DNA of 64,000 bases, taken from the NCBI GenBank assembly GCA_963969365.1, contig OZ017760.1:186001-250000 (forward strand), read 5' to 3'. Of this stretch, positions 1-64,000 are shown piece by piece. Made by a program: the position numbers and the translations under genes. This stretch comes from Asterochloris sp. CNOR1. Its lineage: Eukaryota; Chlorophyta; Trebouxiophyceae; Trebouxiales; Trebouxiaceae. A model generated the notes under the pieces. That model did not search any database. It had not been told where the DNA came from and saw only the letters and a program-made list of their open reading frames with translations. Numbering within the stretch: the stretch's first letter is position 1; every line of letters starts with the position of its first letter.

Positions 1-84
1 CGGCAGGCCTGTTGATGAATTCAAAGAGCTGACTACTCAACAAGCTGGGGCCAAAGGGAGCAGGTACTCAAAGGGCGGGAGCAG

Positions 85-2689
85 TCAATCAAACATGCCA
101 ATGAACATTTGCCCAAATTCGCCGTCTTGGGCTGGCGACTGTTCGTCAGAGTCACTTGAAAATGCAGCTTCACGTTGGCCTGCACCGCCCTGACTGTCAG
201 TTGCAGCACCAGCATCGGATGAAGTCTTTGCTGTCTGGGGTGAAGCAGAAGTCCTGGATTTGAACTCTGACAGAGCCTCATGTCTGAGTGTCTGCTGCAG
301 CGCTTCCTTGCGCAGGCTCTGCAGAAGCTGCTGGTCTCGCAGGCTTTCCTCGCGCTTCCTTTTCCTGCGCTGCTTGCGGGCGCTCCTAAGCAGCTCGTCA
401 TTTGCTTTGTGGTTGAGGTGCAGCGCATGGGTGTGACAGACTCGCAGCTTCACCAGGGCCTGCTTTGCCTGCCCAGCCTCTTTGTACTTGAAGTTGACCT
501 GCAGCAGCAACAACTCAGCCAGCAACTGTCAGGTTACCCAGCATCAGAGCCTGCTTCAGCTGCCTTGCCTCCTTGAACTTGCGCCTGATCTTGCACTTGA
601 CCTGCAGAAGCAGAGACATCTGCAGCATCTGGCTGCAAGTAACAGGCACCAGTGCCTACTGTGCATGCCCTGCCGCGTCAAACAGGATTGTGGCAGCTGC
701 ACTTTCAAGCAAATCAGCTCATTTCAGCAGGCGACTGCCTATCAAAAGCAGCAACTGCTTGTCCATGAGCTCTGGTGCTGCCCCTGCCCGCCACTCATGC
801 CAGATGGTGCCTGCATGCAGCCTGTCCTGGCTGCCCGCAGCAGTACCAACAATCCTCTCTCAGACCTGGCAAGGCAGGTTTGGGTTAGGATGCTGCCCGA
901 CCATGCCTGCGGCTGGTTGCGTGAGAGCTGGCAACACCTTCATGCTCTTTGCAGCAGGTTCACACTGCGTATACAGCAAGCCAATGCAGACCCTGCCAGC
1001 CCTTGCCTGTCACACATGACCTGCACCCTGCCTCAAGGCTGCCTGTTCTTCAGCTGCAGATGCAGCAAGAATCGTGCCACCTCCACAAACAGCTGACTTT
1101 AAGGCAGGCAGGACCTCTGCCTGTCAGCAGCACCAGCTGTTTATTGCCTCCAGCCTCCGTGGTGCGAGAGCCCCTGGCTGCCAGAAGCAGGCATGGTGGC
1201 TAGAACAACAGCGGCCACCACCAGCAGCAGCTGCTCACCTCAAAGCTGGCAAGGCCTCTGCGCTCGCTACAGCCCTTTGCTCCACAGATGAACTGGCCCT
1301 TGCCGGCCACAACCTCACGCTCTGTCCGCCAGCGCATGCCCACCTTGCCCTCCTGCAAACAATGGGCACTGCAGCTGAAGCAGATGCGGCCAGAGATGCC
1401 AACATGTGCACTGGCCTCTCCCAGCCACAGCTTTGCGCGTTGTCTGCCAGGCAGGCCCATGTTGTCCTCCTCCTGCAAGCAACAAATAAGTAACTTGTCG
1501 GAGCAGGTGCCTGTAGAGGTGCTGACACGTGCAACTGACTTGCCAGCCACAATTACATGTTCCACCAGGCAGAGCAGGCCCAGTTTGCCGCTCATTCCTG
1601 CAAGCAAATGAGCGGTTGTCCCCTTGCCTGTCAGGCCAATCCTGCTCTGCGTTGGGCATGGGGCCTGGCGCCCCGCAGCTTGTAAGTCGTCACAACAAGA
1701 GTTGCTTCCCTTAAGCAACAAATGCACATCCTTGTCAGGGCAAGTGCCTACCAGCAGGTGCAATGCAGGCCTGTGCATAGAAGGCCAGGCCAATGCTGTC
1801 GATCCCAAGCAGACCACACAGAATAGTGTGTGCGGGCCCTCCATGCGCATGTCGTCACTGTCTCACAGCCTCCCTGCTGTTGCTGAAATGCTGTTGCTCC
1901 CAGGCAGAAAGGCGCTGAGACGGTTTCTGAGAAGCTGTGCCACATCCTGCCCAACCACCATGGCTGCTCTGCCGAGGCACATGCGGGAATGGCACGTCCC
2001 CGCAGGCAGGTAGCCCTGCCGATACCATAAAGCAGTGGTCCATCAGGAAAGCACTGGCCCTCAAGCAGCAGCCTGCTTGCTAGAAGCTGCCAAACACTCA
2101 AGGGTTGCATCGCTTAACTCATATGCAGAAGCAGCACCAGCACGATACAAGGAAACTGGCAGTCACCTTGTATCGTGAGAGGTCTGCGATGCAGTACTCC
2201 TTAAACAATTTGGAGTAGTATCGTTTGGCTAGCCGGACCTCCCAGGTGTCCTCTTTGTCATCTGCCTCGTCTCGTATGAATCTGCAGCACAGCACGGAAA
2301 GGCTGGTGTGTGCACGCCAGGCCTGACTTTGAGGCAGTGCTGTGCTTGAACACGGGCACAGTGTGAGCTCCCAGTGCCACTGCTGATGGCGGTGACTCAA
2401 GCACTTGCCTGTAGTGCTCACGCAGCACATCCTGATCAGACTTTGTGTCTTGCTGGTTCTCCGGGAGCTTCCCTCTGTAGAACTTGATGTAGTCTGCAGG
2501 CAGCCACATACTTGGCTTGAAAATTGTTTCAAGGCTTGTTGCCATTCTGACTCAACAGCATAAAGTTGGGTGCAACCATGTGACCCTGCATATTCCCTTC
2601 AGCTGACCTGCCACGAACTTCTGGTGTCTCTGGAAGGCATTAAGACCGAGCAAGCGCTTTGTTTCACGAAGCCTGTGTACTTCCTGCAT
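85..2689 (-). CDS. FRA10AC1: FRA10AC1 homologue (folate-sensitive fragile-site protein family)
   Basis: Five exons on the minus strand: 2689-2608, 2493-2409, 2281-2167, 1352-1239 and 498-85, together about 269 residues, with every junction in phase. The family core is recognisable: LNAFQRHQKFV, then EDTWEVRLAKRYYSKLFKEY followed by CIADLSRYK, then KGQFICGAKGC (a CxxxxC pair), then QALVKLRVC and a Lys/Arg-rich stretch (RKQRRKRKREE) that could act as a nuclear signal. The C-terminus is acidic and ends in MFIGMFD, like the short hydrophobic end of animal members. Family knowledge: a conserved nuclear protein reported with spliceosomes; its biochemical role is poorly known. The intron after 2409 starts with GC (CAG/GCAAGT), and only this donor restores the conserved HYRFIRDE junction. 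The start at 2689 is the first Met in frame and could be replaced by an upstream exon. It is divergent from the kinesin-6 gene. Confidence 0.9.
1390..1725 (-). repeat. Decayed tandem copies of the 1352-1239 exon edge in a FRA10AC1 intron
   Basis: Upstream of the exon at 1352-1239, the intron holds at least two and perhaps three degraded copies of the acceptor plus the first part of that exon. The marker TCCTGCAA (acceptor on the minus strand) recurs near 1351, 1471 and 1596, about 120-125 bp apart, with a weaker match near 1705. Minus-strand translations still resemble the exon: TEREVVAGKGQF in the exon, LCLVEHVIVAGKS in a copy. Confidence 0.65.
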
Positions 2690-2842: not shown

Positions 2843-5800
2843 ATGTCGGGGGGCTGGGACGGGCATGATTTGGAGTATGATGAAAGTGATCACAACAGGA
2901 TTTCAGAGCTTTTCCCAAAGTGAGCATCCAGGCCCATTGCGTGCAGAGCTCAGTGCAGGGTTGCGCGCATCTGCTCTGTGCTGCATGCATCAAAACTTGT
3001 GTGTGATCACCTGCAGGAACCTGAACCACCTGTTTGCCTCATCTCCCATGATTGGGATCAGGGCCGCTGCACATGTTACAGTAGCAAATGCTGAGGGACC
3101 CATGGCAGTGGCTGGCTCCCAGCAGATGCCAGAGCTGACCCTGGAGCGCATGCAGGTCAGCTTGGAGACTAGATGTGGTGCCATGTTCTGTTGAATAGAG
3201 TGTTCTCTTGAGCAAAGGGCCATCAGCTCTATTCCACAGAGAAGGGTGGCCTGAGCAGCAGATTCTACTGATCGCATGCCATGCAGCTCATCCCTGCCCT
3301 GGACCTATTTGTCGTGTAGCGCCTTGTAAGACATTCTCGCCAATCCACCCCATTCCCTCACCAATACGTATCCACTCTTCAGGCCCTGCAGGCATGCCTA
3401 CACATGTGGGGTGGGCCCTGCCTCACGCACTGGCTGTCAGTTGCGTACAGTACAACTCACCAAGTCACCTTTGACAATGCAGGTCTTGCCTGCATGTCCA
3501 CCCTGGCCTGCAGCAGGGCAGGGCCTGCCTTACACTGCGTCTGCAGACATGGGTCAATAGAGAACCCCCAACAATGCCATGCGCTGCCACACCATGTGTG
3601 CATTTGCATCCCCACGTAGCATGGCAGGCCCTGCCAATGCACGTGCGTCTTGGCCTTGCAGGGTGTGCGTGTGCATTCTCTGTGCACCACGTCTGGCCAT
3701 GCACCACCTTCATGCTGATCCTGTCGCTTTGTAGGTGTGCGTGCGCATCCGCCCCGCCCTGCAGCAGGGCCTGCCGCGCTTCACCGCAGACAACTGCATC
3801 CACGCTGCCTCAGCCTCCAGCATTGCCATCGCACCCCCCGAGGCCAGCCAGGGCTACCGCAATGGAGACCGCGGGCAGACTTACAACTTCTCACGGGTGT
3901 TCAGGGAGACCACCTCCCAACGGGAGTACTTTGTCGCCACCGCCGCGCCAATGGTCGGTCTTGCTGGCCGTCAGTCATGTTGCCCGTGCCCTGGTGCCAG
4001 TGTGCTGCTCATGCAGTGGTGCTCTGTGGTTGCTGCTGCTCTCAAGTTGGACTGCTCCAATGGTGCTTTGCTTCTACATGTGTCCTTTGTGCGGGCCTTA
4101 CTTGCTGCCAGCACACCACCCACCGGCAGGAGTTCCTTGAGGGTTGCAAACACACTCGTGTGCTGTAGTGTGTTGTGCACATGGGCAAGCATCAGCCCTG
4201 CTAGCATCATGCCACTGTCTGCCTGCCTTGGGGTACTGCTGGCAGAAGGCCTTCGTTTATGTTCTGTGGTGCTGGTCTCTGACCAGACTGTGCAGAATCC
4301 TCACTGCGTGCAGCAGATGGTGAGGCAAGGCAGGGACCAGCTGCAGCCCTGCCTGCGTTCAGTCCCCAAGGCAGCTCACTGTTCAACCCCGTGTTCACTG
4401 CCATGTGCAGGTGCAGCATCTGGTGGAGGACAGGCAAGCCAATGGGGTCATCATGGCCTATGGCATCTCAGGGGCAGGCAAGACCTTCACCATCGAAGGC
4501 ACCAAGGCCCAGCCAGGCGTGGTGCCGCAGGCGCTGGCCCTGCTGTTTGAGGTGGGCAGCTAGACACATGCATTACTGGCGCTGCACAGCAAGCCTGCAG
4601 GGCGCCAGACACACCTACTAGGCAAAGCAGCATCAGCATGAAGCTGCCCACTTGTCAAGGTCAGCTGATGCATCCTGTCTGCCTTTCATGCTGAGCCAAG
4701 CTTTGAAAGGTGCTGAGACAGCACTGCAAGGGCATGCTTTGCCAACGCAGAGGCCTCAACATGTCGGCAGAAGCGCATGTATGCCCTCAACAGACTGGCC
4801 AACCTTGTCTGTGCAGGAGCTGGCACACAAAGCGGATTGCCCCCTGGTGTGCGTCAGCCAATACGAAGTGTACAATGAGCAGATTTATGATCTGCTGGAC
4901 ACGGATGGAGGAGGACTGACAGGCGCCCGCCAGCGGCTGCAGCTCAAGGAGGACCCCCAAGGGCGGGTGTTTGTGGGCGGGCTATCAGAGGTGAGGCTTG
5001 AGGTTTGGCTCGCGGAGGATTTCCAGAGGTGAGGCTGGCGATTTGGCTCAGGGAAGATGCCCAGGGGGGGTGTTGGCGGGCGGGCTGTCAGAGGTGATCC
5101 TAGGGATGTGCTGCGTAATGCAGGGCCCTGCCAGACATGGGGTGCTGCACACTCCTCAAACGTCTGATGGCTACATTCTGTGGGGTGAGGTGCTGGCTCA
5201 CCTCACAGTCAGCTGCAACACACAAACGTGTGGTGCAGGGAGGCTCACATTAGCGGTGCAGGGAGGCTCATTGCAACCGGGGCAGCAGCTGCCCTGAAAG
5301 TCAGGCAACCAGGGGCCCTTGAAGCCTGTTGCTGTAGTTCACTGCTGTCGGCAGCACACTGGCCTCGCTTCAGGCGGGCAGCCAGGCAGTTGCTCTTGCA
5401 TGTAAGATGCAAGCACCAGCAATCAGCCTCTCGCAGGTGGCCACTGCAGAAGCAGCCCTGGGAAGTGTGAGGCAAAGAGCCATGCAGCTGCTCTGGCATC
5501 TTGCTTCCATGCACTGACGGTGATATGGCTGCAGGTATCTGTGACCAGCGCCACAGCTGCACTGGAGGTGATGAGGCGCGGGGCCAAGCAGAGGCAGCGT
5601 GCAGCCACAGCCATGAACTTCCAATCCTCGCGCTCCCACTCCATCTTCACAGTGAGCGACCGTGCTCATGACGGCCTGTGTTCAGGGATAGATGGATTTT
5701 CAGGCATGCATCGCACAATGCGCTTCTGCCATGATTCGACTGCACGTGCATGACTGACATGGGTGTGGAAGGCTGACACTGCAGTAACCATTGTTTCCTG

Positions 5801-8800
5801 CTGAGACCACCCCTACAGGAACCTTCACTTGGACAGTACGAGCAGCAAGGCCTTTCAGGCCTTCAGCTGTTCATACACACTGCAAGCAGGTCTTTGAGAC
5901 AGCACAAATAACACCAGTCAAACCAACTGGCCACTCGAAGCTCAGAAGCTTTTTCCCGGTGCAGGTGGTGCTCTATGGCAGGGCTGCTGGCGTCGTCAGC
6001 AGCGAACCCCAGCAAGAGCGGCTGGGCAAGCTGTCGTTTGTGGATTTGGCTGGCTCAGAGAGGGCAGCTCGCACAGGCAACGTCGGGGCTAGGCTCAAGT
6101 GAGCTACCAGAACCATTGCTGGCAGTGTGCGGCAAAGCCACCTTCCTCAACTGAAAGTGTCTGGCGAGCAGACCATGTAGCCAGCAGCAGGCAGACTGCA
6201 GTCACGACCCTTGCCGCACATGCACCTTAGAGGGGCAGCAAGGCAGCCAGGCGTGGCATGCCTGCAAGGCTACCTGTCTCAGTGACAAAGTCACCAGCAA
6301 ACCTTGGGCCCCTCAGCAACTCCAGGTTCCTCTGCACATGGGTCCTCTGCAGCAGCTTGCACCCTTCAACCTGGCCAGACAGGGCCATCTCCATAGAATA
6401 AGCTGTGGACTGATAGACACAGCAGCCCACTGACCTTTTTGCAGAGAGAGCGTAGCAATCCAGCAGCCTGACGACCTTCTGGCCTGGCAGCAGTTTGGAT
6501 GGCAAGCCTCTATATTGTGTGCAGGGAGAGCATGGCCATCAACAGCAGCCTCATCACCCTCTGTCTTGACACTCTGTCTTGACAGCAATGCTAGAAAAGC
6601 GAGTCCCTGACTTGTGTTCAGGGAGAGCGTGGCCATCAACAGCAGCCTCATGACCCTGGGGCGCTGCCTCGAGGCCCTGCGCTGGAACCAGCAGCACCGG
6701 CTGCAGGAGCCGCGCCTGGTTCCCTACAGGGAGAGCAAGGTGACCTGCGGCAGGGGTTTCATCCATGCCGTGAAGGGTTCTGCCCTTGCCTTGGGATGGC
6801 TGTAGGTTCCAGGTTTGTGCCTTGCAGGGAGAGCATGCGACGTGCAGGGGATGTCAGGGTGCTGGCCGCTTCTGGGGGCGCCAGACCCTGCGTTGAGCTT
6901 TTTCCCCCCGCCACCTGCAGGTCACCCACCTGTTCCGAGATGCGCTGCACGGCTGGGGCCAGATCCTGCTGTCGGTCAATGTCAGCCCCTGCGCCAAGGA
7001 GTACGATGAGACATCACATGTCCTGAAGGTAAGGCAATTCACAGTGCCTTATGGCTGGTGTATATCTCAGGGCCTGCAAAAGCGCGGCTCACAGGGGAGC
7101 AAGTAAGTGCTGGAGCAGCATGCCATGCTGCTGATGTGACAGTTGTGCTGTGGAGTTCGTATGTTGCTGCCAGGACAGACCATGATGAGATCTTCCGATT
7201 CAACAGCTGTGAGACTGCAGTCAGGCATCTGCGCCACCTGCGTGTGAGCGTCTCAGGCAGCATTAAGGCTGTCACATGTGGCTTGCCTGCAGTGGCTGCT
7301 CCATCTTGGCTCCAAGGCATGTAAAGCTAAGTGGGACATTGCTGGTGGCACAGCAGATGCCTGGCAACCTGGGATGCATGGCAGCGACAGGGCTCACCAT
7401 GATGCCTCTGTCTGCAGTATGCTGCCCTGGCCACCCAGATCGGCACAGCAGCACGAGCAGAGGCCCCGCTGCGAGCTGTAAAGGCAATGAGCCCTGCAAT
7501 CACAAAGAAGCGGGGAGCGGCCGGGCCTCCACAAGGTCCCAGGTGAGCTGCACAGCCACTGCCAGGGAAACTCAGGATGTAGGCTTGTTTGGTACCTGCA
7601 ACAGCACAGGCTGCAGCAAGCTGTGGCCTGAGTCACGTTGCCGAGGCAGCAGGTCACCTTGCAAAGGCAGCAGAGGCTGCTGCAGTGCATCACCTCACGC
7701 AGAGCTCAGGCAAGACACTTGCAGCCAGCACACTTATGGTTTAACTGCTGCCAAAGCAGGCAGAGCAACCACAAGGCCTGCTGGCAAATGCAGTTTGGCA
7801 AGGTCTGCTGGAGTGCTTGTGCATAGGACTGGTGGCTTGATGAAAGGATTACACTGTAAATGCAGTCCCAGAGCGTCCTGCAAGTATTGCTGCTTGCTGT
7901 GGTTCTCCATGTCCTTGCAGATGCACATGCAAACTGGCTGCCCACAGCAGCCCTGGGCCCATGACTTGCCTGGCATCTGCGAGCTTGCAGGCTCATCGAC
8001 TCCACATTGCCGCCTGCAGCAACCTGGGCCCGAAGCGGGTGAAGGCCTCAGACCTTCAGGCAGCCCATGCTGCCAAAGCCCCTCAGGCAGCAGCAAGGCC
8101 AGACGACTGTCAGTCAGGCCAGGCCACTGGGCCAAGCAGCAGCCTGGGTGCTGGTTGTGAGGATGCAGTCAGTGCGGATGAGCGTGCTGCGCTGGCGACT
8201 GACCTGGCACACCAGCGGGAGCGCTGCCAGGAGCTGCAGGGGCAAGTGGAGGACCTGCAGGAAGAACTGGAGGACATGCAGAGCCAGGTGGGGCACATAT
8301 CCTGTTGTGGCAACATGTACATGTGCTTACGTAGTGAGCAGCCATCTTGTGTAGGTGGAGTGGGGTGCTTGAGCACATGCAGAGCCAGATGGATCAGTCA
8401 ATATATGGCAGTGGACTGTCATTGTGGTCACTTGACATGGCAGCATGTGGGCTATACTACTAGGAAGTGGTCGAACAAGCCGGCAGGTTGCAGCACCCGC
8501 AGACCAGGAGCAGGCAGAGCTTGGGTACAGGCTGCACCGGTGGGGCATTCAAGGTGGCAGTGTGATTGCTGTCTAGACTTGATAGGATCACGTGAATACA
8601 AAGAGCAGCAAGAAAGGGTTTGATTGCTCTTGACACATTGATACAGTACACTGCTGGTCATGCAGTGTAGCAGTGCTGCAAAACAATGGACGAAAGCCTG
8701 CCTGCTGGCACTGCACCTTCTGCAGCTGCTGATCTGCTATGAGCACCCATGCCCTGCAGCGCAGCAGCCAGGCCTGCTACCGCCACCCAAGGACGCATGC

Positions 8801-11800
8801 TGGTTCTCAGCTCTGCTTTGTCTGGGCCTGTTAGAGTGCCTGCATGTACTGAGCAATTCGCGGCCCTGGAGGGGGCACCCAGCCTGCAGGTCAATGCTCT
8901 TAAGCTTGTGACCACCACAAGCAGGGCTGCACACCGCTAGTTTACATAAGGTAGCCGCCATGCAGGCAGTTTCAATAAGCAGGCAGCAGACGCTGCTGGT
9001 CAGACCCATTTCCCTGGTCCAGTATGGGAAAGTGGCCCTTATGCCGTGCAGCGCCTGGCCCATTGCAGCTACCCTGCATCTTGCAGCTGTGCCTTGCAGG
9101 TTGTGTTGGGCAGGAAGTGGCTAGCCTCACCCTTGCCAAGCACGCTGGCACACTGCCTGCTGCAACCAGAGTACCATTTGGCCTCCACAAGGCCTCTACA
9201 ACATGGTAGCCCGTACTTTGCAGCTTGCAGGCATCAAGAAGAGCCAGCTGAGCCTTCACCCGGAAACAGCTGCTGGCGTAGACTCTCTGACTTTGTACTT
9301 GCTGTGCAGCTTGCAGCAGCCGAGGAGCGCCAGGCTGCGACAGAGGCCGAGGTGCGGGACGAGGTCAGCGCAGAGATGGGGGAGCTGCTGCGTGACATGG
9401 AGGCAGGCTACCGGGTGAGCAGTCGGGAGGGGCTCAAATGATCACTTGTGGGCATGATTGACTGCACAGGCAGTTGTGCAACACGGAAGCAAGGCAAGGT
9501 GAGTAGCTCTGCTATCTGGGCATGCATTGCCTTGTTGAGTGAGGTCACCATTTGTTTGATGTCAAAGAAGCAACGGCCTCAGAATGAGCAGCATACAGGC
9601 AGGCAGGGTGCAGCAACGAAAGGCAAGGTAGTCAGGCATCATGCAGGGTTTGACATCTGGTAATGTGAAGTCTGGCAACATTGTTGCATCTTGTCTGCAG
9701 CTGTGCTGTGCAGAGCCCAGGCTGCTGTGCAATGTCTGGGAGATGGGAGGCTGCATCTCAAGTTTGGCTGTGGTTCAACTCCTGGGACAGGAGGCAGCCA
9801 ATTGCCAGATGAGACAGCGGCAGTCACCATCTGCTTTTCCACGATGAGCCAAGCAGCTGCTTTGAGGCAGGCCACGAACCCCTCTACATGTGGTTTGGCA
9901 CCCTCAAAGCTGAGCAGATGCTGTGCTTCTTGAGGTCCCTGCAGGCCGCCAAGGATGCTGCCCTGGAGTGGCAGTGGCACAGAGCTGAGCAGATGCTGTG
10001 ACCACCTTGAGCTGGTCAGCCGGTGCGTGCAGGAGCGCTTGGCAGCCGAGGTGGCTGCACTAGAAAGGAAGTATCACAGCACTGGAGCTGGACCGACTGA
10101 CAGCTGTGCGCAGCCCAGCGGGGCGTGGGCAGAGCAGCCTCAGCCTGTGCAGCCTCAGCCTGCAGAAGCGCCAGCTGCCACACAAGCCACTGGGGCAGTA
10201 GCAGGAGCCAAACCTGGCCAGGACAATATTGATGTGTCAGACCCTGCGCACAGAGTTGCTCATGCAGCTGGGCAGGCTGAGGGTTGTGAGCAGGATGCAG
10301 ACCTCAGGTAAGCTCATCGGAGGCGTTACATGCTGCAGCCTTATGTGTTTTGTTATGTGCATTGGCCTGGCCCTGGCTGGGATGCAGCTGCAGCCAGTTG
10401 GGGAGTGGCACGCAGCTGCACCCAGCAGGGGAGTGGCACGCAGCCCACATTCTGGACATCCCCACAGCAGCTGCCTGCTGGTCAGATGCAGTGTTGCTGG
10501 CAGCAGTGCAGCCAGCCATCCTCCTCATACCTGGCAGCAAGCTCAGTGTTGTTGCCTGAGCGAGGTGTTTGGAGCAGGCCATGCGGGGCAGTTTCAGCCA
10601 GTTTTACCTACCTGCATGGCAAGGGCCGAGGATGGCAGACCTGCACTGCAAGCTGTACGCCATCATGCATGGGCCTGCGTGAAGTCGGTGCCCTGAATGT
10701 GTGGATGCCTCCAGGTCTGCCCTGCACGCCGCACAGCAAAGGGTCATGGAGCTGGAGAGGCTGTGTCAGGCTGGAGCAGCCCAGCAGGAGACTAACAGGG
10801 GGGAGCTGCGTGCAGCCATGGAGCGTGAGCACGCAGAGCAGGTTGACCAGTTGCAGGTGGGCTCCATCAGGTTGTGAAGTGCCCATGAAGAAGTGCATGG
10901 GCAAGCCAGCGCGGCGGATCAGCAGTTGCAGGTGGTTCTGGTGTGCCTGCCCGGCAGACCAGGGGGTCAAGTCTGATGGTTGGCAAGGAAAAAGCGCAAG
11001 GGTCCCTGCGCTATTGCACATGACTTTACTGATGTAGCGCTGTGTGTGCTGTCCCCAGCCCCTGGGGCACTTGCATGTGAAAGACGATTGATGGTGCTCT
11101 CATACACTAGTTGAGAGCTGAGCCTGCAGCCTGAAACATCTGCTCATTGTGAGGTGCGTGCCATGGCCATCAACCTCTGGAAACCTCTGCATCTGCTGCG
11201 CAAGCGAGCTGCTAGGCGTGGCCAACAACATCTCATTAGAAACAGAACCATCAAGATGATTATGTGATGCGCTGGCATCGCTACCTGCAGGTGAACTGGG
11301 ACTCAGAGGTGCACATGCTGCAGCAGGAAGTCACCCGCGCACAGCAGCAGTGGCAGCACTCCCAGCAGCGCCTGGAGGGGCTGTTGGATGCCATCAAGGC
11401 AGCTGGTGTTGAAGGTGAGCACTGGTTTGGCGCACATGTGGAAGGAGATCTACATGGCAGGGTCACACTGCTGGAGTACTTTGCCTGCCTGCAAAAAGTT
11501 GTGTGCTGGCTTAGCAGCAGAGAGGCCTGATTGTGCTGCAGCAATTTGCCCGATGTTGTGGCACTTGTCTGAATGTTGCGGTGCTGCCTCTGCTGTGCAG
11601 GGGCTGTGCTCAACCCTGCCATGTTGGCAAAAGCGGGGCCAGGCAGCGCTGGGCGCATCGGTGCTGCACACACGCCCCACGCAGTGGCGCTGATGCGGGC
11701 CCGACTGGCGCTGCAGAGCTCTGTCCAGGTGGGTCTGATCAAAGCCTGGGCACCTCTGCTTTGTTGTCCCGGGTGCAGCACCTTGAATGGCAGCAATCTG

Positions 11801-16131: not shown

Positions 16132-17253
16132 CCATAAGATGCAATGATGACATGCATTTGCTGTCTCTTGGCTCCATTGTGGAACTGAACAATTTGAGAC
16201 AACCGAGACTAAAAGTTGTGTTCCTATCACAGCAAGCCCAGAATGTCGAGGGGCTAATCTGGGCTCATGCACAAGTCTGCTAAAGCAGTGCACTGGAATT
16301 TGACCCTTTATCACAGCCCCTGACATTGCAAGAGGCTGCATCTGCAATATGCTGCCAGCATTCAAAAGCAGTTGGCCATGAGAAGAGCATGCTAAGTACG
16401 TGTGTGGCCAGTCTGTCAGCTGGAAGCCACCATGAGTCAGACAAGCCAGCCTTGTGACTCCAGGCAACAGAAGTCATGCTTGCAGTCAAAATGAACAGAG
16501 CTACCCAGTCCACAAATTGTACAAAAGGGAGCAGTGTAGCTCACACAAGACTTGCCGCATGAGGTCAGCTCCAGGCACACTTCTGCTGACCACAGGTGAC
16601 CTTCCACATGCAGCACTCGATGTTGGGAACGCTAGAATCTATGAGGCACCCTCCCTGAATGATGTATGCTGTTCACGGCACATCAGTGTGGGAGGCGTAC
16701 AACCCGAGTCTCTATTCCCTTGAGTGGCCATAGAGTACTGCCACTGTGCATCTGCACCCCCAGTGCTGCAGCTAGTATGGCTCCAAGTGAGCTGTGCCAA
16801 GAGCAGGTCGCAATGGCTGCCTAGCTGTGAATCAACGGACAGGCGCAGATTGAAGTCATGGCATGTTGACCCCGCTGAACACCTGAGGTCACTCACAAGG
16901 CAATGTGGCCTGGGCACTGCACCACTGCAGTGCCCACTAGCCATGTGCATGCTGCCAGGCTGTGGAACAGCAGGCTGTACTATCTCTAAAGCGGATTTGC
17001 TGTCAAGTTGCAGATGTTTCAACACTGGATCACCTCACCTGGCCAGCTCCCCGCCAGGCACTTCGAGATCTCCCTCATCGATACTTTCTGGCCAGTCGAC
17101 ACACGCCGCCGGGCAGTTTAATTCGTATGAGGTCATGTCGACAGCTACTTGAGCTACAGGTTGAACGCTGCTTGGCGGTGGAGTGGCAGTGGCAGTCAAC
17201 GGACTTAACCCATGTCGGGAGCATGATAAACAGCTCTTTGTGATAGCCAGGCC
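16132..17253. other. Intergenic region between kinesin-6 and kinesin-4
   Basis: About 1.1 kb with short spurious ORFs only and no recognisable protein or RNA. It probably holds the 3' UTR of kinesin-6 and the promoter and 5' UTR of kinesin-4. No TGTAA poly(A) signal, the usual green-algal form, was noticed close to the stop codon. Confidence 0.5.
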
Positions 17254-36273: not shown

Positions 36274-46142
<9,869 letters not shown>

Positions 46143-53000: not shown

Positions 53001-56000
53001 CCACCAGGTCCCAGAGCGAGGCGTTGTGCCACTCCTCCATGGCAGCAGTGCCTGCCTTCCTGTTGTGCTCACGCACATGCACGTCGGGGTGCCAGCGCTC
53101 TGTCCAGGCCACGCAGGCTGGGAACCAGTGCAGGAACAGGCTCGTGATCTGCAGAGCATGCAGAAGCGCGTTTGATCGCAGGATGGGGCAGAGGCGCACC
53201 TTTGCCTGGAAGGGCAGGTGCCACTGCTGGGAACCATTGAAGGCTGTCCAGGTGCAGAGCAAGCAGAGCAACCTGCACTGGCTGCTGCAGTGCCAGCTGT
53301 GGACATGAGACATCTGCAAACACATGCTGCACATCTGCCCGGAGGAGAGGGGCACATGTGGGGGCACCACTGAAGAGTCCTGTACGCACCACAGTTTGTA
53401 TGAGGCTGGCTGATGCAGGTAATGCCTGATGGCATGCCGCAATACAACATGGCACACATGCAGAGAAGACTGATGACACAAGCATGCGTCTGGGAAGCTG
53501 AAATTTGAGCGGGGCTGGTGAGACTGGAGCAGGCAGACAAGTGCCCTCGACGACTGCAGTCCAGCAGCGTGCAGGGCACGCTGCAGCAACAGTTTGCATG
53601 AGCACTCAGCTGAGACAGGGTCAGGCACAGCCACTGCACCAGCTTGTGGCAGCAAACGCTGCTGGATGCCAAGCTGACACGGTGTTGTAAAAGAGAAAGG
53701 GCCAGATTGCGGCGCTTGTGCTAGGAGAAGATTCATGCTTTTACATTACCTTGTCCACAGAGTGGAAGACCAACGAGTTGCGGAAGGCGATCACAGACCA
53801 CGCCAGCGGGCCTGTGGCATATGCAAAGGTGACCTGCAGCCACACCCAGGACTGCATCAGCCTCTGCTGCCCAACCAAGTTGTCCAGACAGGCCCCCTCA
53901 ATGGATTGCGCTGGTGTGAGAGACGGAATACTTCTGACCATGCACTATCACAGGCGAGCACCTCTGGCGCTGTGCTGTTGCTGCACTGTGAGTGTGGAGG
54001 CAGTACACCCACGCTTGGGTCGCATCATACAAGAGAAGGGATGAAAATGTCGACAGCAGCAGCTGTGAATTTTGTGCGGTCGGCAAGGCATCAGGGGACT
54101 TGCAGCAGGAGCTGGGGGAGCACTGCTGGCCATAGCAAAGCTGCCCCCGTGCAACAAGGCTATGTGTAAAAGGGCTTTACAGCCCCAGAATGGAAGCGCT
54201 GCCAACGCACATCACAGAAAAGGGTGGTAAGAGTAGGCATTGCCTGAACCATTCACAACACCCAAGGGGGCACTCCTGCCAAAAGCAGAACAGCACCTGA
54301 CCTTGTGCAAGAAGGCGCTGTGAGGGAAGACCCAGATGTGCACCAGCAGGAGCACATTGGCGACATAGCAGAAGTCAAACATGTAGTAGTGCCACCTGCA
54401 GCCAGAAGGGTGCCCATAAGTTCACTTGCCCACCTACCCATGCTGCAGGCATGGGCAGACGATGTCAGGCTGCTGACAGCAGGCTTGAGTGCCATGCTGC
54501 ACCCACTTCCAGGCTGATGACAACCACGGGGGACAATCCCCAGGGAGGCAGCCAGCATTGCTGGACGCGGTCAAACCCCAGCCAATGTCTGTCCAATGAG
54601 CTGCACTTGCTATGCAGGCGGCAAGTGGCTGCCAGACCGGCCTGTCACATGCCTGCTGCCGGTATGCTGCAGGAACAGCAGAGTGCTGTGGCACAATATT
54701 GGCACCATGCTAGGGCTTCGCCTGTGCCTGCCACGTGCTGTGCCAGCCCATGCAGGACCGTCAAGTCAACTCACTTTTTCATGCGGTACATGACCCAGCG
54801 CAGCGTGAACAGCACTGCGGCCTCGATGGTGTACACCCGGTAGAAGGTGGTGGGGCTCCACCCCAGCCAGTACGCGCTCAGCCTGCAGGCAAGGCATCCT
54901 TGTGCAACGCTCACAGCAACAGCTGTGGCTGCCTCAGGCAGAAGGTGTTGGGCGTCCAGCTGGGCCAGTCTGGAAAAGGGCTTTCGGCCTGAATGCAGAA
55001 GGGTTGCTACTCCTCCTGTCTGCTTCCTATATCAATGTTCTGCCGATCACATGACACATAAATTCACTGCACATCATGCGGCAATATTGCCCTCAGAAGT
55101 GAAAGCTTCATGTAAGTTTGCGCTCGGAGCTGGGGGATCGGGGCATCTGCAGGGTTTAGGACATGAGCCTATGCAGCAACAAGAGCTGAACATCCCAGCT
55201 GCAGAGAGACAGGTGTGCTGGGTGTCGGGTAGGCTGAGTCTCCATGCCGATCACATGCACCGTGCACACGTGGGCTCCATAGCACAGATCTCAGGTGCTT
55301 CACTAGTCATGCATGGTGTCTCATCCCCCTGGCAGGGAGCAGTCACAGCTGAGCCTGGCTGAGGACCATACCCTAATCCCTGGCTTTGGTAAAACACACT
55401 CGCAGCTAAGGGCGTTCAACCCCTACATGTATCGCACAGCCCCCATCCTGCTCACATGGCCATGACTGTCCCCAGGACGAAGGCTAGCTTGTCGCGCAAC
55501 AGGATCTTGTTGGGGGTGACCTGCTGCTTGATCAGCTCTCGCACTTTGGCGCGCGTCAGCAGGCTCACGTCCACATCGCCAACATCCAGCTGCAGGCGCA
55601 GAATACACAGTTTGCAAGACCTCTCACGCGGTAGACAAGCTTAGTCATCACAAACAGTGATGGCATGACCCGACCCCGCTGTTCAAGCATGGCAGTTTTG
55701 ATATTCAAAGTGAATTTCACATTGCCATGCGTTGCTCTGCTGGCGTACAGATGGCATGCATGCTGCAGGAGCGGGAAAACGGCTGACAGACTTGGGAGCG
55801 GCTGCCAGCAGCAGCTGCCGGGAGTCTGCTCACCTGCTCATACTCGTCGAGGTCTGAGAGGCTGACGCTGGGGGCAGATTCAAAGGCTTCATTCAGCCGC
55901 ATTTCTGTGAGGTCGCTGATGGTGTGGCTCAGGAAGTTGCCTGCACTGGGGGCAGGGTCGACTTGGCTGCATGAGAATGTAAAGCTGTCAAGAGTGTGCC

Positions 56001-56825: not shown

Positions 56826-59800
56826 ATGGCTGCTGAGGACCTCATGGAGGTACCTGACTGGGGGCCCTCCCTGGAGGGCCCTGCAGACTATCCCTCCCTG
56901 TCTGTGAAGGAACTGAGCAGGAATAGGAAAACAAAACGCAAGCACAGGCATGAGGACCTGGAGCTGGCCAGAATGGCAGCTGGGATGGTGCAGATCGACT
57001 TTGCTGCCACCCCAGGTGAGCAGGCAGGCCCTTGAGCTAGCGTGGCGCCTGCTGGTGCTTTCCGATAACTGGCACATGGCCAACTGGCTCTGGGCCTGTC
57101 TGCAGATGCTGCTGGCCAGTCTACAAAGCCAAAGGCAGCTGCAGCACAGCCTGAGCAGGCTGACGCACCTGCCAAGCAGCACAAGCAGAGCAGGCGCAAC
57201 AAGTTCAAGCAGGCAGGGGCGGGGCCGCCGCTTGGGCCAGCCCAGGGTGGACCTGCCGCAGAGGCAGCAGAGCAGCCAAGGAGGGCTGCCGGGAAGAGGA
57301 AGCAGGCGCCATGTGCACAACCTGCCAAAGCAGCAGAGCTGCCTTGGCCAGGCCAGGAGCCACAATCCGTTGCCAGCCGCGGCCCGGGTGACATGAAGGG
57401 CCTCACAGCAGTCCACACCGGGGAGGGCACAGAGACGATCACAAAATCGGGCAAGGAGCCAGCCAAAGGCAAGGGCAGGGCTGCAATCAGGGCCGCAGCC
57501 AAACACAAGGTCCTGCAGCAGCATCAGGGCTCTGCCCTTGGCAACGGCGCTGTGGCTCAGACTGGCAGCAGGCTCCAGGCGTCAGCGGAGGATCCCACTG
57601 GGCTCCTCAAGGGCAAGGGCAAGGGCAAAGACATGGCCGTGCTGCAGCAACCGGGCCCTGCCCCTGCCGACGGTGGTTCCACGCAGACCAGCAGCCAGCC
57701 TGCCACGCCAGGGCAGGCAGTGGCTGGTGTCAGGGGCAAGCGCACCCAGCAGCACCTGGGTGTTGCCCCTGCCAGCAGCAAGCCAGCCTCTGTGAGCCAG
57801 GCTGTGGTCCAAGACACGGGCAAGGGCAGGGCCCAGCGGCCAGAGCAGGGTCCTGCCCCTGCCAGCAGCCAGCCGGCCTCGCCACGCCAGGGGGTGGCGT
57901 CGGGTGCGGACGGGGATGCCCCACTGGGAGCGGATGACATGTCCTTCTTGCAGCAGCTGGCGCTGGCTGCTCAGCGCCACCGCTGCGGCTTTGAGGCGGC
58001 TGAGCGTGCTGCAGCTCCTGACGCCGCACTGGATGCGCTCGCAGACTTGGGCTCCTCTGGGGCGGCTGACCCTGCAGGTGAGAACTGCAGCCCTGCTGCT
58101 GTCGGAGCGCGGGGGCCAGCAACAGCATACTGATGCAGAGGAGGCTCCAGCCTGCCAGGGCAACTGCCGCTCTGAGCGCGCTGTAGCCTCCGCCTCGGCT
58201 GTGCCTGTTGACATAGGCTGCACTGAATGTGCCTGTGGACATAGGCCTCTCTGGGGCTTGCAGGAAATGTGAGGAGGCTGCAGCAGCCTGCTCTGCCAGC
58301 TGAAAGGACTTGTCAGAGCACCTGTTCCTTGGGCTGTAAGGCGGTGGAGCGTGCTGCAGCTGTTATGGTGTATCAACAGCTTGCCCCTTCATTTCTACAC
58401 AGATGCGGGATGGGTTTACCGCTCAGCTTGCAGCCACCGGGCATGCATAACGCAGGCCTTGTCTCACTGTGTCTGCAGTTGTTGTGTGTAGAGGCCCCTG
58501 CCAGGGCTGAGCGGGCAGCTCCCAGCCACTAGAAAATGTGACTTGAGCACTGTCGCTGTGTGCTGAGGATGAGGCCTGGGCTGAGCAATGCCAGTAGCCA
58601 CCATTCATGCAAGTATTGTGCCCACCACTCGCCTGTCTTGTCATGTACGGGGGGTCAATCCCAACAAAACCTGAGGCAAGCCTCATGCCTGCCCTCAGAA
58701 GATGAGGCAGCTGGGCAGAGCGGCGGCTGTCCTGCCATCAGCAAGTTTGACATCGACCCTCAAGTTAATGTGCCTGCTCTTTGCGTGTGCAGAGGATGAG
58801 GCTTGGGCCGAGCGGGCAGCTGCAGAGGCGGTGCAGCGGGCAGCTGAGGAGTGGCCTGGCGGCCTGCAGACGGCTGCAATCCCTCTGTCCAAAAAGGCTC
58901 GCAAGGCCGCACGTGCCCAGGCCACAGCTGCAGCTGCAGCTGCAGAGGGGCCAGACAGAGCGAGGCGGGCGCCCACCCTGCAGCAAGCACAGCCTGCTGG
59001 CGCTGAAACGCTGAAGCAGGCTGCGGTCGAGGCGGGCGCGGCATATAAGCGGAAGCACAAGGGCGGTCTGCTGGACCAGATGCGGGCCAGGCTGTCTGGG
59101 GGGCAGTTCCGTGCGCTGAATGAGCAGCTGTACACGCAGCCCGGGGGCGAGGCCTTCGCCCTCATGCAGGGCAACCCTGGGCTGTTTGACCTCTACCATG
59201 CGGTAAGACTTCTGAGTCGGCCACAAGTGATGTGGTGGGGGTTTGTGGCACGAGAGGGGAAGGTGTGGGCTGTGGCTTCTGTGACCTGTAGCATGAGGTG
59301 AGGCTCTTCAGTGGGACCCGCAAAGATGTGAGTCATGTGCAGGTGGCAGCCCAAGCCTGCTTGATTGAGGTGACCGGTGTGTGTGGGCTTCGGTGTGGGA
59401 CGCCCCAACATGTGGAGTTGTGTGCAGGTGTCTGCCCAAGCTTGCCTGGTGATGTGTCCAGTATGTGTGGGCTTCGCGGGCGGGACACCACAGGTTGTGG
59501 GTTGTGTGCAGGTGGCAGCCGAATCTGATCAGTGTGCGCAGGCGAGTGCCTTCAGTCGGGCACACCCTTCTGTGTGTATGTAGGTCTGTATGTTTGTATG
59601 TACTTTTGCACATCTGTATGCTGCTGTGCAGGGCTTTCGGCAGCAAACGCAGCACTGGCCGGTGCAGCCAGTGCAGCAGGCCATCGCCTGGCTGAATGGG
59701 AGGCCTCACAGCTGGGTGGCGGCTGACTTCGGGTGCGGAGATGCGCAACTAGCTGCCAGCGTGCCCCACAAGGTGCACAGCCTGGACCTGGTGGCCAGTG

Positions 59801-60712
59801 GTCCTGGGGTCATCGCTTGTAACATGGCAGACACGCCTCTGGGTAAGGCACAAGGCACAAGCGCTCAGGCTGCTGAGCTTGCGTGCCAACAAACTCTCCA
59901 TGTTCAGCCTTCCCTTCAAGCTGGCTCTGGCTGGCAGCGTGCAGCCCGCCAACAGGGCTGTGCGTGCTGCCTGGGTGAGGTCTGTTCTTGCTTGCTCCAA
60001 GGCTTCCTGCAGGACGTGGTGCAGGCACTAAGCGCAAGCCCGGATTTTTGCAAGCAGCACAAATAACTGGCATTTTGCTTGTTCAATGCGGCTCTGGCAG
60101 TCAGCATGCTGCCTGGGTGAGGCCTGGACTGGCTTACCTGAGGGTCGCTTGCAAATTCGTTGGCAGCTCCAGCTGAGGGCGTGCACGTGTTTTTACTGAG
60201 GGCCTGAATCAGTGTGAGCAGGCCTGCGAGCTTGACTGCGCAGCGCCCGCAGCGCCGCAATGCCAGCAGCCAGTCGTGCGCTCTGTGGTGTGCCTGAGTC
60301 AGTTGCTGGATGTGTGGCTGCCTGCTGTTCAGTCGTGGTCACGCTTGCCTTGTCTCATTCTGATGCAGAGGATGGCTCCATGGACGCAGTGGTCTTCTGC
60401 CTGGCCTTGATGGGCACAGATTATGGCAGCTTCCTGGAGGAGGCACATCGAGTGCTGCGTGTGGAAGGCCACCTGTGGATAGCAGAAGTGCGCAGCAGGT
60501 TTGCCAAGGGTGTGGAGGCTCTGAAAGGCAGTGAGGGCCAGGAGGACCTGCAGCCTTTCCTGAAGGCGTTGCAGCAGCTGGGTTTCAAGATCCTGCAGAC
60601 AGATGCCTCAAACAGAATGTTTATTACTATTGAAGCACGCAAGAAACAGACTCAGGGTACGGTCCCCAAGCGCTGGCCCAGGCTTAAGGCTTGCCAGTAC
60701 AAGAAACGCTGA
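56826..60712 (+). CDS. RRP8: RRP8 ribosomal RNA-processing methyltransferase (nucleomethylin family)
   Basis: Five exons: 56826-57015, 57106-58077, 58793-59202, 59632-59842, 60369-60712; about 708 residues, all in phase. The C-terminal third is the conserved domain: LLDQMRARLSGGQFRALNEQ, LYTQPGGEAF, NPGLFDLYHAGFRQQTQHWP, then the SAM-binding motif VAADFGCGDAQLA, HSLDLVA, VIACNMADTPL, GSMDAVVFCLALMGTDYGSF, EAHRVLRVEGHLWIAEVRSR and a short basic end. RRP8 methylates adenine N1 in the large-subunit rRNA in the nucleolus and, in animals, also takes part in rDNA silencing. The N-terminal 450 residues are Lys/Arg/Ala/Gln-rich and probably disordered (KQSRRNKFKQ, AAGKRKQAP), like other RRP8 N-termini but longer and repetitive. 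The start was chosen because MAAEDLMEVPDWGPS leads an uninterrupted frame; an upstream in-frame Met at 56664 exists. Confidence 0.93.
57520..57905 (+). repeat. Degenerate ~30-residue coding repeats in the RRP8 N-terminus
   Basis: Three or four units with the pattern LQQ...P(G)xAPAxxxxxxSSQPATPxQ followed by GKG or GKR, for example GPAPADGGSTQTSSQPATPG, GVAPASSKPASVSQAVV and GPAPASSQPASPRQGV. DNA similarity is high around TGCCCCTGCCAGCAGCAAGC. Confidence 0.75.
58550..58595 (+). repeat. Decayed copy of RRP8 exon 58793-59202 start
   Basis: GAGGATGAGGC(C/T)TGGGC(T/C)GAGC occurs at 58565 and at the true exon start (58793), 228 bp apart. The upstream copy lacks a CAG acceptor (GTGCTGAGGATG). A partial echo (GGGCTGAGCGGGCAGCTCCC) lies at 58504. 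Confidence 0.8.
59290..59545 (+). repeat. 84-bp tandem repeat in an RRP8 intron
   Basis: TGTGCAGGTG recurs at 59337, 59421 and 59505 (spacing 84, 84), each followed by a CTGCCCAAGC or GGCAGCC type segment and GTGTGGGCTTCG. About 2.7 units, moderately diverged. Confidence 0.85.
59576..59626 (+). repeat. TGTATG-rich simple sequence before an RRP8 acceptor
   Basis: Pyrimidine/GT-rich stretch (TGTATGTAGGTCTGTATG, TTTGTATGTAC) directly ahead of the acceptor at 59631; it may serve as the polypyrimidine/branch region. Confidence 0.55.
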
Positions 60713-61194
60713 GTGCGAGAGGACGTCCTGCCCCTTTACTTTTTACTCGACCCCTTATGAAATCTGGCAGCCTGCAGCTGGTGCAGGCCGGGCTGCACAC
60801 CCGCATGGTGCTTCATTGACTCTGATGGTGCACCATCGACTGAAGGTGCCTTGCATTGCCCTTTAAGCAGGAGTACATGTGGTGCTCAAGGACATGTGGC
60901 CCTGCTTCAGCACATGCGCAGCCAGGCGTGGCAACTTGCAGCATGCAGAGCTCATGCACTGCTCCTTCTGTGACTTGGCTCTACACGGGCAGAGTAGGCC
61001 TAAGTATGGTAGCTAACCTGTGGTGGCAAAGTACCAAAAGCACAAGCATTTCATAGAAGCCTCTGCTGCTGAATTTGCTGATGTCTGCAATACTCAGCAT
61101 GCTGACTGACCCCAGCGCTGCAGTGGGTGTCATCAGGCTGGCACCCAGAATATGTCATGTGCTGTGTTTTAGCTGGTAAGGCATGGGTTGTTTC
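60713..61194. other. Convergent intergenic region (RRP8 / RING gene)
   Basis: About 480 bp between two convergent stop codons with no coding or RNA signal recognised; presumably two 3' UTRs. Confidence 0.5.
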
Positions 61195-63894
61195 TCAAGA
61201 ATAGATTGCCTTCACTGTTGCTCTGATCAATCTGCGGCAGAGCGGGCAATGCAAATTGCGGTCCATGGCAAGACAACCATCAACTCCATACTGTTCTTCT
61301 GCACAGCGCAAACACGCAACCATATGTCCGCAGGGTGCCAAGAACACTGATTTGGGCTGGTCCATACAAATTATGCACTCCTGCTGACATGTTAGTTCAG
61401 CTGCATCTGCAGACTCCACCAGCGGCGCTGGCACATTTTTGCGACCACCAGCTGACTTGGGCCTGGGCTTGGGTTTAGGTTTTGAATTTGGTTTTGCTGA
61501 AGGCTCCATCGGTTGCTGGTCAGGCAGCTCGTCACCGGTGGTAACAGATCCGGGACCGCTGCGGGAAGGATGGCTACGTAAGCCAGCGTCCAGGTTGGCC
61601 GGTGGCGGCCGTGAGCCAAGCTCAGATGCCCACACAGCAGCAGCAGCAGCTGGCGGGTTGAGCTCGTTCTCCAAAGCAGGGGCAACTGGCTCCCTGTCAC
61701 CGATGTCCAGTGGTGAGCTTCCAAGCAGACGCCTGCTGCTGTCTACAGCGCTGGGCTGCTCCTCACCTGCCGGTGCTGTGGCGAGCACCACTGCCTGACT
61801 GCCTACTCTGTGGTCATTGAGAGAGCCTGCAAGCCATTAAAGATCTGGCTTGTCTTGTGTGCCTTGTACAGAGGTGACAAGATGGGCGGCATGATGCCAG
61901 GCAGTGTGCACTGGCAGGTCACAGCAAACATGTCAGCTGAGGTTTTAGCCACATGAGTGGTGCTTTGCCAGGCAAGGTGCATACATGCTGCTGTAGCAGG
62001 CAAGCAATGCTGAAGGTGCGGCAAAAGCGAGCCTGAAGCTCACCAGGGATGGAGGCTCCCAGGTCTCTGCTGCTGAATATATCAGCCCTGATCTGCAGCT
62101 TTGCCCCGTCCGCATGGAGGAGCTCGGGTGAAGGGCTCTGTGGCAAGGCCAGCAAGTGCTGATGAGGCCTGGAGCAGGCAGGGGATTGTATGTTGATGTT
62201 CTCCCTCAAGGCCATGAGTACTGAGCAGGGGCTGATAGACGTAACAAGCAGTGCAGTTGCAGGAAGTGCCTCTCAAATGAGTCACACAGCTCGAGGGCGC
62301 CTTGATCCCTGCAACGAGATCAAGCACTCATTAACATGTTGCAGCTGCCTGATACAGCAAGTCTTGACGCCGCACCACGGCTCACCTTCCACCAAGATTC
62401 AGCAGGTTTAGGGTAGACGACACATTGCGCTCCTCGCCGAAGGGCTGCTTGCCGGCATCAAGAGTGCTTGGCAATGCACCCTGCTCCTTGCCCTGTGACT
62501 TGTTTATGAGCCTCTGGCGCTGTTTTGACTCATGGCGTCTGCGCTCTGCAAGCTCCTCCTGCATAGGCAACGACAAGGGCTGGTGCTGGCTGAGAGCTGC
62601 GCGGACCTGTTTGTGTCTGGAACAAGAAGGAAAGCACAGCACTGTGCACCACCTCAAGCACTCCATCAAGCCTGTTTCTGGGCGTTGACAGCTGCGTGAG
62701 GCAGCTCGCAAGACTACGGGCACAGTGAAGCATTCAAGTGCACACGCAGAGGGCAAGTAGTGACCCTCACCTCCATCAGAAGCTCCTCCTGTGCTCTCTG
62801 TGCCTTGGCAAGCGCAAAGTCTGCAGCCTTGGCGTCCAACTTGTCCTGCACGCGTCATCAACCGTCAAACAGGACAGAAAAGGACTTCCTTAGGCAGAAA
62901 CAGTAGACGATGTGTTTCTGAAAACCATGATGCTTCTCAACAGCCAGTGGCCAGCAAGTTATGCCTGTTGATTAGTGCTCGAGTGTGCTGCACTGATGCA
63001 GCACAGGTACAGCGTGCACCATCAGCACTCCTTGCCTGCAGAATTGGTAGCACAATTGCTGTGCCAAGGGTGAACCCAAAATCAACACTTGCCACAAGCT
63101 GCAACTGAGAGTCCAGGTGGACTACGGCCGCATGCACTTGTTCCATGCGCTTCTCCACATCTTTTAGCTGCCTGCAGATCAAGTGACACTTAATGAGCTC
63201 ACAGGCAAACACAGATGCCACAGTCCTTCGTGGTCCAGTTGCAGTGCAAGTCTGCTTCAAGATGGGTTGGTGTCTACCTCGGAACTCCGGGTGCAGGCAA
63301 GCATGGCAGACCAAAACACCCCACAGCTCTCACCCGTCAGTCAACTGGCTGTGTCTGTTGCTGTGCAGCTCCTGCAATCTGTTCAGAGTTTCAAGAGCTG
63401 TGACAAGATTCCTGAAAGCTACACTGCGGGTGTCTATCTCTCTGCCTGCAAGATGCAAACAAGGAGGAGCTATTTTTGGGTCTAGGCACTGTGAGCAGTG
63501 TTCTTGGTGCACCCCAGTGAAAGCCTTCATTGAGGCATTGCATTCATCTCACCGATGTGGTATTGCGCAGCACAGTGCGCCCAGTGGGCTTTGATCTGGT
63601 GCTGCTCAAACACAAGTTTGAGAAGCAGGGGGTAAGGGTCTCCGTGCCCTTGCCACTCTTGCAGATGGCTCTCTTGCTCCTGTCCCTGCAAGGTCAATCG
63701 AGATTAATATGTTGATGCAGCACAGGCAAGCTGGTCTGCAATGTCAGACAGGCTGGCACACAGAAGCGATGGGAACATCAGGGCACAGATCACCTCACCT
63801 CAAGGTGCTGTACCAACGATGTATTCAGCTGAAGATGTTCACCATCTTCAGGGAGGGTCAGCAGATCAAACTCCTGCATACTCTTCCCCGCATC
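61195..63894 (-). CDS. Coiled-coil protein with C-terminal RING-HC finger (probable E3 ubiquitin ligase), possibly 5'-partial
   Basis: Nine exons on the minus strand: 63894-63799, 63685-63553, 63445-63334, 63171-63096, 62845-62771, 62606-62386, 62308-62222, 62168-62044, 61826-61195; about 518 residues, all junctions in phase. The middle is helical and charged (NLVTALETLNRLQELHSNRH, QLKDVEKRMEQVHAAVVHL, EELAERRRHESKQRQRLI), so coiled coil is likely. A Pro/Ser/Lys-rich linker (KPNSKPKPKPRPKS) precedes a C3HC4 RING: CIICMDQPKSVFLAPCGHM, ACLRC, then CPLC near the end. C-terminal RINGs of this kind usually recruit E2 enzymes and ubiquitinate a partner bound by the N-terminus. I could not assign it to a named subfamily. 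The first exon listed opens with DAGKSMQEFDLL and has a good acceptor (TTCAG), so an earlier exon probably lies beyond the window; an internal Met there is the alternative start. Confidence 0.82.
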
Positions 63895-64000
63895 CTGAAT
63901 TCGTTGCCACAACACAGTCTAGCTCAGCAATGCAGGCAATCTGGCAGACACCACAACAAACATCTCAGAAGAGCTCTTGAGACCTACAAGCCTGTGTCTG

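Follow-up and report, generated by a model that had tools for sequence, protein, structure and literature searches.

The window examined here, the whole stretch of 64,000 nucleotides at positions 186001-250000 of contig C15, comes from a genome of 56.38 Mb in 21 contigs and was compared with a genome sample of 200 kb drawn from ten other contigs (264 kb in total with the window). Proteins predicted in it match the Pfam families Fra10Ac1, FKBP_C, DUF2838 and Methyltransf_8, together with three Kinesin motors. Elsewhere the genome encodes an rbcL whose best matches in the PDB, 8q04 and 1gk8, are green-algal entries, in line with a green-algal host. The gene models are predictions of a self-trained gene finder from sequence alone, in which neighbouring genes can be fused (2843-30003 is given as one), some exons are mis-called and one model (61195-63873) contains an internal stop. 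The finder predicts 710 introns of median length 183 bp and mean 230 bp, an ordinary size given the mean of 240 bp stated for Coccomyxa, also a green alga (PMC3446292). Predicted acceptors in the window and L002-L021 are, in the self-trained model, nearly uniform TGCAG (T 86%, G 92%, C 97%), with a scant pyrimidine tract.

Stretches resembling the edges of neighbouring exons recur beside and within many of the window's predicted introns. The original prediction had cited 18 places at which an exon end with its donor, or an exon start with its acceptor, seemed to be copied into the adjoining intron, and 16 of these hold a local same-strand match of score at least 18 (ungapped direct matches scored +1/-1, at an offset of 20-1000 bp and no more than 40 bp from the cited interval); the same 18 intervals placed at random reach this score 4.2 times on average (maximum 9, 41 placements). 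The places that stay below it are 20671 (best 15) and 39665 (best 17). The features are given below by coordinates and strand; per-site alignments used HSPs of score at least 20 and offset at least 25, leaving out starts in 13255-13420 and 27984-28480.

1284-1589, minus strand: FRA10AC1 gene (Pfam Fra10Ac1); direct copies of exon 1239-1352, now decayed, lie at 1402-1450 and 1539-1589, and the gene finder makes parts of both into exons (1404-1472 and 1566-1597)
4957-5110, plus strand: first kinesin motor gene (Pfam Kinesin); exon end (4990) and donor, 4957-5007, copied at 5060-5110, with an extra pair 4986-5040/5024-5078 at an offset of 38 bp
6473-6657, plus strand: acceptor and exon start 6568-6657 with a copy at 6473-6560, nearly head to tail (offset 95, gap 7); ungapped match 6502-6560/6599-6657
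11697-11873, plus strand: exon end and donor 11697-11734 copied 139 bp downstream at 11836-11873; finder exon 11856-11867
20925-21264, plus strand: second kinesin motor gene; an exon end recurs 306 bp downstream without its donor; the predicted exon 21112-21328 that holds the copy is doubtful
21509-21618, plus strand: 52-bp segment in near-perfect tandem (offset 58, 90% identical); the finder calls part of the second copy (21591-21612) exon and none of the first, which on our own reading would be the real exon end plus donor
24653-25070, plus strand: exon end repeated downstream at distances of about 63, 125 and 353 bp; finder exons 24768-24816 and 25000-25043
27452-27645, plus strand: array of a 56-bp unit, 3.4 copies, overlapping predicted exon/intron boundaries; the cited place 27464-27650 corresponds to this tandem array
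27984-28461, plus strand: array of a 65-bp unit, 7.4 copies, flanked by conserved exons; the small exons that the finder places within it are probably false
28898-29458, plus strand: exon end and donor 28898-28961 copied 497 bp downstream at 29395-29458 (64 bp, 78%); finder exon 29419-29452
42656-42985, plus strand: third kinesin motor gene (Pfam Kinesin); a segment of 36-69 bp recurs in decayed form at 42656, at 42822 and at 42911-42985, where it carries an acceptor
45195-45305, plus strand: exon end and donor 45195-45222 copied 78 bp downstream at 45273-45300
46583-46752, minus strand: FKBP gene (Pfam FKBP_C); 81-bp segment of exon end, donor and intron in tandem, 46583-46663/46672-46752, offset 89
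48243-48403, minus strand: acceptor and exon start, with a copy some 99 bp further upstream in the transcript
50979-51592, minus strand: DUF2838 (GPC1-like) gene (Pfam DUF2838); mesh of decayed local copies, in which the pair 51105-51161/51280-51336 holds a donor, the copy lying upstream in the transcript
52485-53035, minus strand: DUF2838 gene; repeated segments mostly inside predicted exons (coding repeat)
58468-58821, plus strand: RRP8-like gene (Pfam Methyltransf_8); acceptor and exon start copied 227 and 301 bp upstream

Because the gene finder calls several copies exons, exon and copy are not always separable without RNA. At the cited place 52475 the match pairs two predicted coding exons. 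Coding repeats are also seen at 12433-12649, in 72-bp units (a multiple of three), and the first half of the RRP8-like gene (57500-57900) has degenerate repeats within its coding sequence.

Copies of this kind extend well beyond the cited places. In an annotation-free scan for ungapped local direct matches (offsets 15-1000), controlled by matches at a distance of 5000-5985 bp, by inverted matches and by local dinucleotide shuffling, the window holds 80 local direct matches of score at least 20 against 0 distant, 2 inverted and 0 shuffled, and the 200 kb of ten other contigs hold 160 against 0, 7 and 0, respectively. Local direct duplication is thus genome-wide within the sampled contigs, the window being about 1.6 times denser than the 200-kb sample partly because of its tandem arrays. 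A small excess of inverted copies is also present in the window and the 200 kb, and E. coli K-12, scanned for comparison, has one local direct match of this score in 50 kb. When gaps are allowed, pairs of score at least 22 number 186 locally, 1 at a distance and 0 after shuffling across the 264 kb. The expectation that local copies would exceed a shuffled control is therefore borne out, as they far outnumber the shuffled, distant and other-gene controls, all of which are near zero, and chance or composition is ruled out as the source of the matches.

The excess is local. The excess of 10-mer pairs is 14- to 37-fold at offsets below 40 bp, about 7-fold at 40-59 and 8- to 17-fold at 60-129, where the 60-69 bin is raised partly by the 65-bp array that feeds it, and has dropped off to 2-fold by 350-399 and to 1.4-fold by 500-599; inverted 10-mer pairs at offsets of 60-129 are at 0.7- to 2.1-fold. 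Offsets of the gapped pairs of score at least 20, with arrays and exon-exon pairs left out, likewise have their fullest bins at 80-139 (49 of 150). Single-base autocorrelation is slightly raised between non-exon positions (about 0.002) and between exon positions (about 0.005), with no clear excess between exon and non-exon, indicating that the signal rests on detectable pairs and not on the bulk sequence.

Mobile introns (introners) or dispersed repeats could also give rise to similarity within introns, and the window does contain dispersed sequence. The interval 31537-31722, within a predicted intron, is a mobile or dispersed insertion of about 180 bp that is absent from a paralogous stretch on contig C14 and has one other copy, on C12 (94%), among the matches listed. 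The segment 20000-39999 has at least 46 dispersed matches in its own genome, of which 3 of those listed fall in its first 10 kb, a kinesin gene, and 36 fall in 34837-35802, part of a dispersed family. Next to that family member lies the predicted gene 30832-34985, which is without a Pfam match and has a relative at 73% on C14. A search with the first 18 kb against its own genome gave at least 4 matches outside the query, of which one lies inside the window. Two places about 44 kb apart, 16575-16623 and 60445-60493, have 49 bp in common in inverted orientation with 90% identity, and 61193-63984 belongs to a gene family whose copies on C7 and C11 align through introns and exons alike at 74-79% identity. 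The exon-edge pairs, however, are local and gene-specific, none of the same kind being present at 5-6 kb, and among the matches listed the kinesin genes have few dispersed matches and no near-identical introns shared across many genes. Introners and dispersed repeats are accordingly rejected as the source of the kinesin-gene pairs, and as an account of the similarity at large we consider them extremely improbable. The 65-bp array, searched against its own genome, has no second place in it.

The original prediction went further in seeing a mode of copying specific to exon edges. Several observations favour a process directed to exon edges or splice sites, such as repair coupled to splicing or to AGGT junctions. 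From the 710 introns two sets were filtered by exon and intron length, one of 265 and one of 249 that was filtered additionally by distance from contig ends. Of the 265 introns, 18 contain a copy of their own donor flank and 15 one of their own acceptor flank (score at least 16), compared with 0.2 donor and 0.2 acceptor flanks of other genes per 265 introns, 0 and 0 inverted flanks, and 0 and 0 flanks from the same gene more than 2.5 kb away at the same score. Donor-edge probes match in 14 of 186 introns, probes of equal length from the intron interior in 1 of 186. Along the gene, probe matches keep to a background level of about 2-9% at most offsets when both directions are summed, and peak at the edges: downstream copies at the donor are found in 17 of 249 introns at -20 and 13 at 0, followed by 8, 4, 5, 13, 3 and 5 at +20 to +120, and upstream copies at the acceptor in 21 of 249 at 0 against 7, 5, 8, 8, 7 and 11 away from the edge. 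Relative to intron means of about 6 (donor) and 8 (acceptor) per 249, this is a peak of about 2- to 2.7-fold. Matches cover 66 of the 710 predicted donors and 63 of the acceptors, compared with 31 and 29 sites lying 30 bp into the intron.

These figures do not single out the edge itself, as sites 20 bp inside the exon are covered about as often as donors (70 versus 66 of 710), and pairs of score at least 22 cover exons as they do introns (11.3% of exon bases, 10.6% of predicted intron bases). When the 314 matches of score at least 18 were set against circular shifts, pairs of an edge-spanning and a non-coding segment numbered 64, the null being 63.9, while exon/exon pairs (67 versus 29.1) and pairs spanning an edge on both sides (30 versus 16.6) were raised and pairs non-coding on both sides lowered (82 versus 116.2); the unit of this test is the HSP, which is not an independent event, and tandem arrays are included. 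The excess of pairs spanning edges on both sides is a point in favour of edge preference, for which exon-exon repeats and copies read as exons by the gene finder account only in part. A simulation of blind tandem duplication with conserved exons and purging of exon-internal events, in which the rates and the purging rule are our own assumptions, nevertheless yields a donor peak equal to or larger than that observed, 2-fold at a divergence of 0.1-0.3 and 5- to 8-fold at 0.2-0.4. No edge-seeking process is therefore needed for the peak, and edges would look favoured because intron-intron pairs decay on both sides. In most measures there is no edge preference beyond that of the model, and the copies look to fall throughout genes and not at exon edges in particular. 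The edge-specific part of the original prediction is not upheld, the both-edges excess remaining on its side; an edge-directed origin is rejected as the main cause on the circular-shift equality and the simulation, and we hold such a process to be improbable.

What became of the copies bears on their possible function. In 85 HSPs between exon and non-coding DNA the mismatch rates at codon positions 1, 2 and 3 are 0.204, 0.196 and 0.292, and the offset is divisible by three in 36 of 122 mixed pairs and in 16 of 25 exon-exon pairs. The mild third-position excess and the free frame of the mixed pairs fit one conserved exon and one unconstrained copy. Copied splice sites, which the original prediction had described as decoys, do occur: 65 of 1420 predicted sites (35 donors and 30 acceptors, of which at least 6 lie within the 65-bp array or next to it) are copied in nearby non-coding DNA with a score of at least 17. 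Acceptor copies lie upstream in 26 of 30 cases and donor copies downstream in 26 of 35, a bias due in part to the requirement that the other copy be non-coding. The copied dinucleotides are retained about as well as their neighbours or slightly better (GT 0.80 and 0.91, AG 0.90 and 0.87), a retention biased by the score threshold and by the way the sites were predicted. Such retention, and the acceptance of several copies as exons by the gene finder, might suggest that the copies are functional alternative or mutually exclusive exons. Two constrained copies would however give a stronger third-position excess than the mild one seen, and the frame is free, so that coding function of both copies is rejected as the general case, as a class, on the codon-position mismatches of the 85 HSPs and the offsets modulo 3 of the 122 pairs, and we regard the functional-exon reading as very improbable.

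The orientation of the pairs is as expected for small tandem duplication, direct matches outnumbering inverted ones by 80 to 2 in the window and 160 to 7 in the other contigs, and clear head-to-tail cases are seen at 21509, 46583 and 6473. Many pairs are nevertheless spaced. At offsets of 60-500, an unmatched spacer of at least 45 bp separates 52% of 29 non-exonic and 56% of 107 mixed pairs, and 81 pairs of score at least 22 have such a gap at an offset of up to 500, including some of the most similar ones (gaps of 259 and 369, 90% identity). The flanks of these 81 pairs have hardly any similarity to one another, the mean score being barely above the control (6.67 versus 6.35; score at least 12 in 3.7% versus 0.5%), and anchored extension of the flanks found none (0.50 versus 1.07 in the control). 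This could mean that short segments of 30-70 bp were copied, with their orientation unchanged, to a site some 100 bp off through template switching or the templated filling of gaps, and were not duplicated in tandem. Templated filler is expected in both orientations. The scarcity of inverted copies of score at least 20 thus counts against such local copy-and-paste, as do the head-to-tail cases and a simulation in which old tandem copies with large indels approach the observed picture, if only at high divergence and with a somewhat lower identity. We regard copy-and-paste as possible but unlikely; tandem duplication is the likely founding event.

Comparison with related sequence did not supply a single-copy ancestral state: the window's copy of the 61193-63984 family has no ungapped pair of score at least 19, the paralogous stretch of L014 (three matches in the paralogue search) offered no strong local pair for comparison, the corresponding search with L016 gave one 56-bp match, and searches of viral_contigs and genome_contigs gave no kinesin relatives from another alga.

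The age of the copies was estimated from 110 pairs touching non-coding DNA (offset 40-500, arrays left out), a set that omits 11 exon-exon pairs, none of which reaches 90% identity. Only 4 of the 110 are at least 90% identical, where a constant-rate simulation expects about 20 (18.1% in its edge version, 22.5% in its neutral version). Full head-to-tail copies of at least 95% identity with units of at least 12 bp number 13 in 264 kb, against 0 after shuffling, and apart from one 65-bp array their units are of 12-39 bp. Perfect head-to-tail duplications of 13 and 14 bp lie in predicted introns at 6559-6584 and 27169-27196, and are young small duplications. The steady, ongoing process originally proposed does not fit, as near-identical copies of the class of about 100 bp are too few and the young units are short. 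In the 264 kb, and on a simulated clock, small tandem duplications look recent or current and the 100-bp class mostly old, a claim we make with moderate confidence.

Taken with these data, we think it probable that the pattern reflects blind small local duplications, probably in tandem, which were tolerated where splicing hides them. Such duplications would hit genes regardless of exon structure, at offsets mostly of about 60-140 bp with a tail to about 450, by a founding tandem step that would probably be staggered-break repair or slippage. Where a duplication spans a donor, splicing would keep the first donor and leave the second copy inside the intron; where it spans an acceptor, the inner acceptor would stay in use and the outer copy end up inside the intron. 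If splicing still uses the original donor or acceptor such events would be nearly neutral and the intron would lengthen, the intron copies presumably being silent, while events within an exon would survive mainly when in frame. Selection would keep the exon copy as the intron copy decays, so that exon-edge pairs would stay recognisable for longer than intron-intron pairs. This account of blind duplication draws on the local direct excess, the offsets, the free frame and the decay pattern, all directly observed; against it stand the minority share of clean head-to-tail pairs and the excess of pairs that span edges on both sides. It is also conceivable, though unlikely, that an ancestor of this alga underwent a burst of short-range copying on the same strand, typically reaching about 100 bp, that turned roughly a tenth of both exon and intron sequence into pairs still recognisable today and later slowed down for copies of this size; the many short, sharply bounded copies would then speak for direct-only templated copying rather than tandem duplication.

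For introns themselves the consequence is likely to be growth, and this part of the earlier interpretation stands, with 10.6% of predicted intron bases lying within the pairs of score at least 22. Duplication of AGGT-type junctions as a main route to intron gain does not. Its signature, in which the donor and acceptor flanks of one intron are mutual copies at an offset equal to the intron length (score at least 14), is present in 4 of 658 introns filtered by length and distance from contig ends, against 0.4 expected from shuffled pairings; the signature of a new intron exists but is rare. If this account of blind duplication is correct, it puts numbers on intron lengthening without transposons in a gene-dense alga, through blind local duplication and splicing tolerance, with conserved exons acting as the reference that keeps old duplications visible, and an exon-edge pattern may arise without any edge-specific process.

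The pattern is real and well supported, and the kind of event is already known. Among the papers listed by the literature searches, none concerned an exon-edge copy pattern in a green alga. Introners and introner-like elements, the subject of PMC9860276, are likewise a source of new intron sequence, but their copies are spread over many genes, whereas the copies here are local. Tandem duplications that cross exon-intron borders have been described, as has the gain of introns through tandem duplication (Ma et al. 2016, PMC4974935; Yenerall and Zhou 2012, PMC3443670), and intragenic duplications are cited there as commonly observed; the copies here also lie inside genes, and as in those cases the duplicated stretches cross exon-intron borders, as the potato duplication does, and copy splice sites. 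Unlike those cases, existing introns appear here to grow, and the donor-acceptor signature of a new intron is rare. Repair of staggered breaks produces small tandem duplications, which Schimmel et al. (2021, PMC8355091) present as the most frequent kind of short insertion (<100 bp) in the human genome; the copies in this alga resemble them in direct orientation and short units. They differ in that the copies are mostly decayed, their offsets peak near 100 bp and their adjacency is often lost; any likeness of mechanism would be by analogy.
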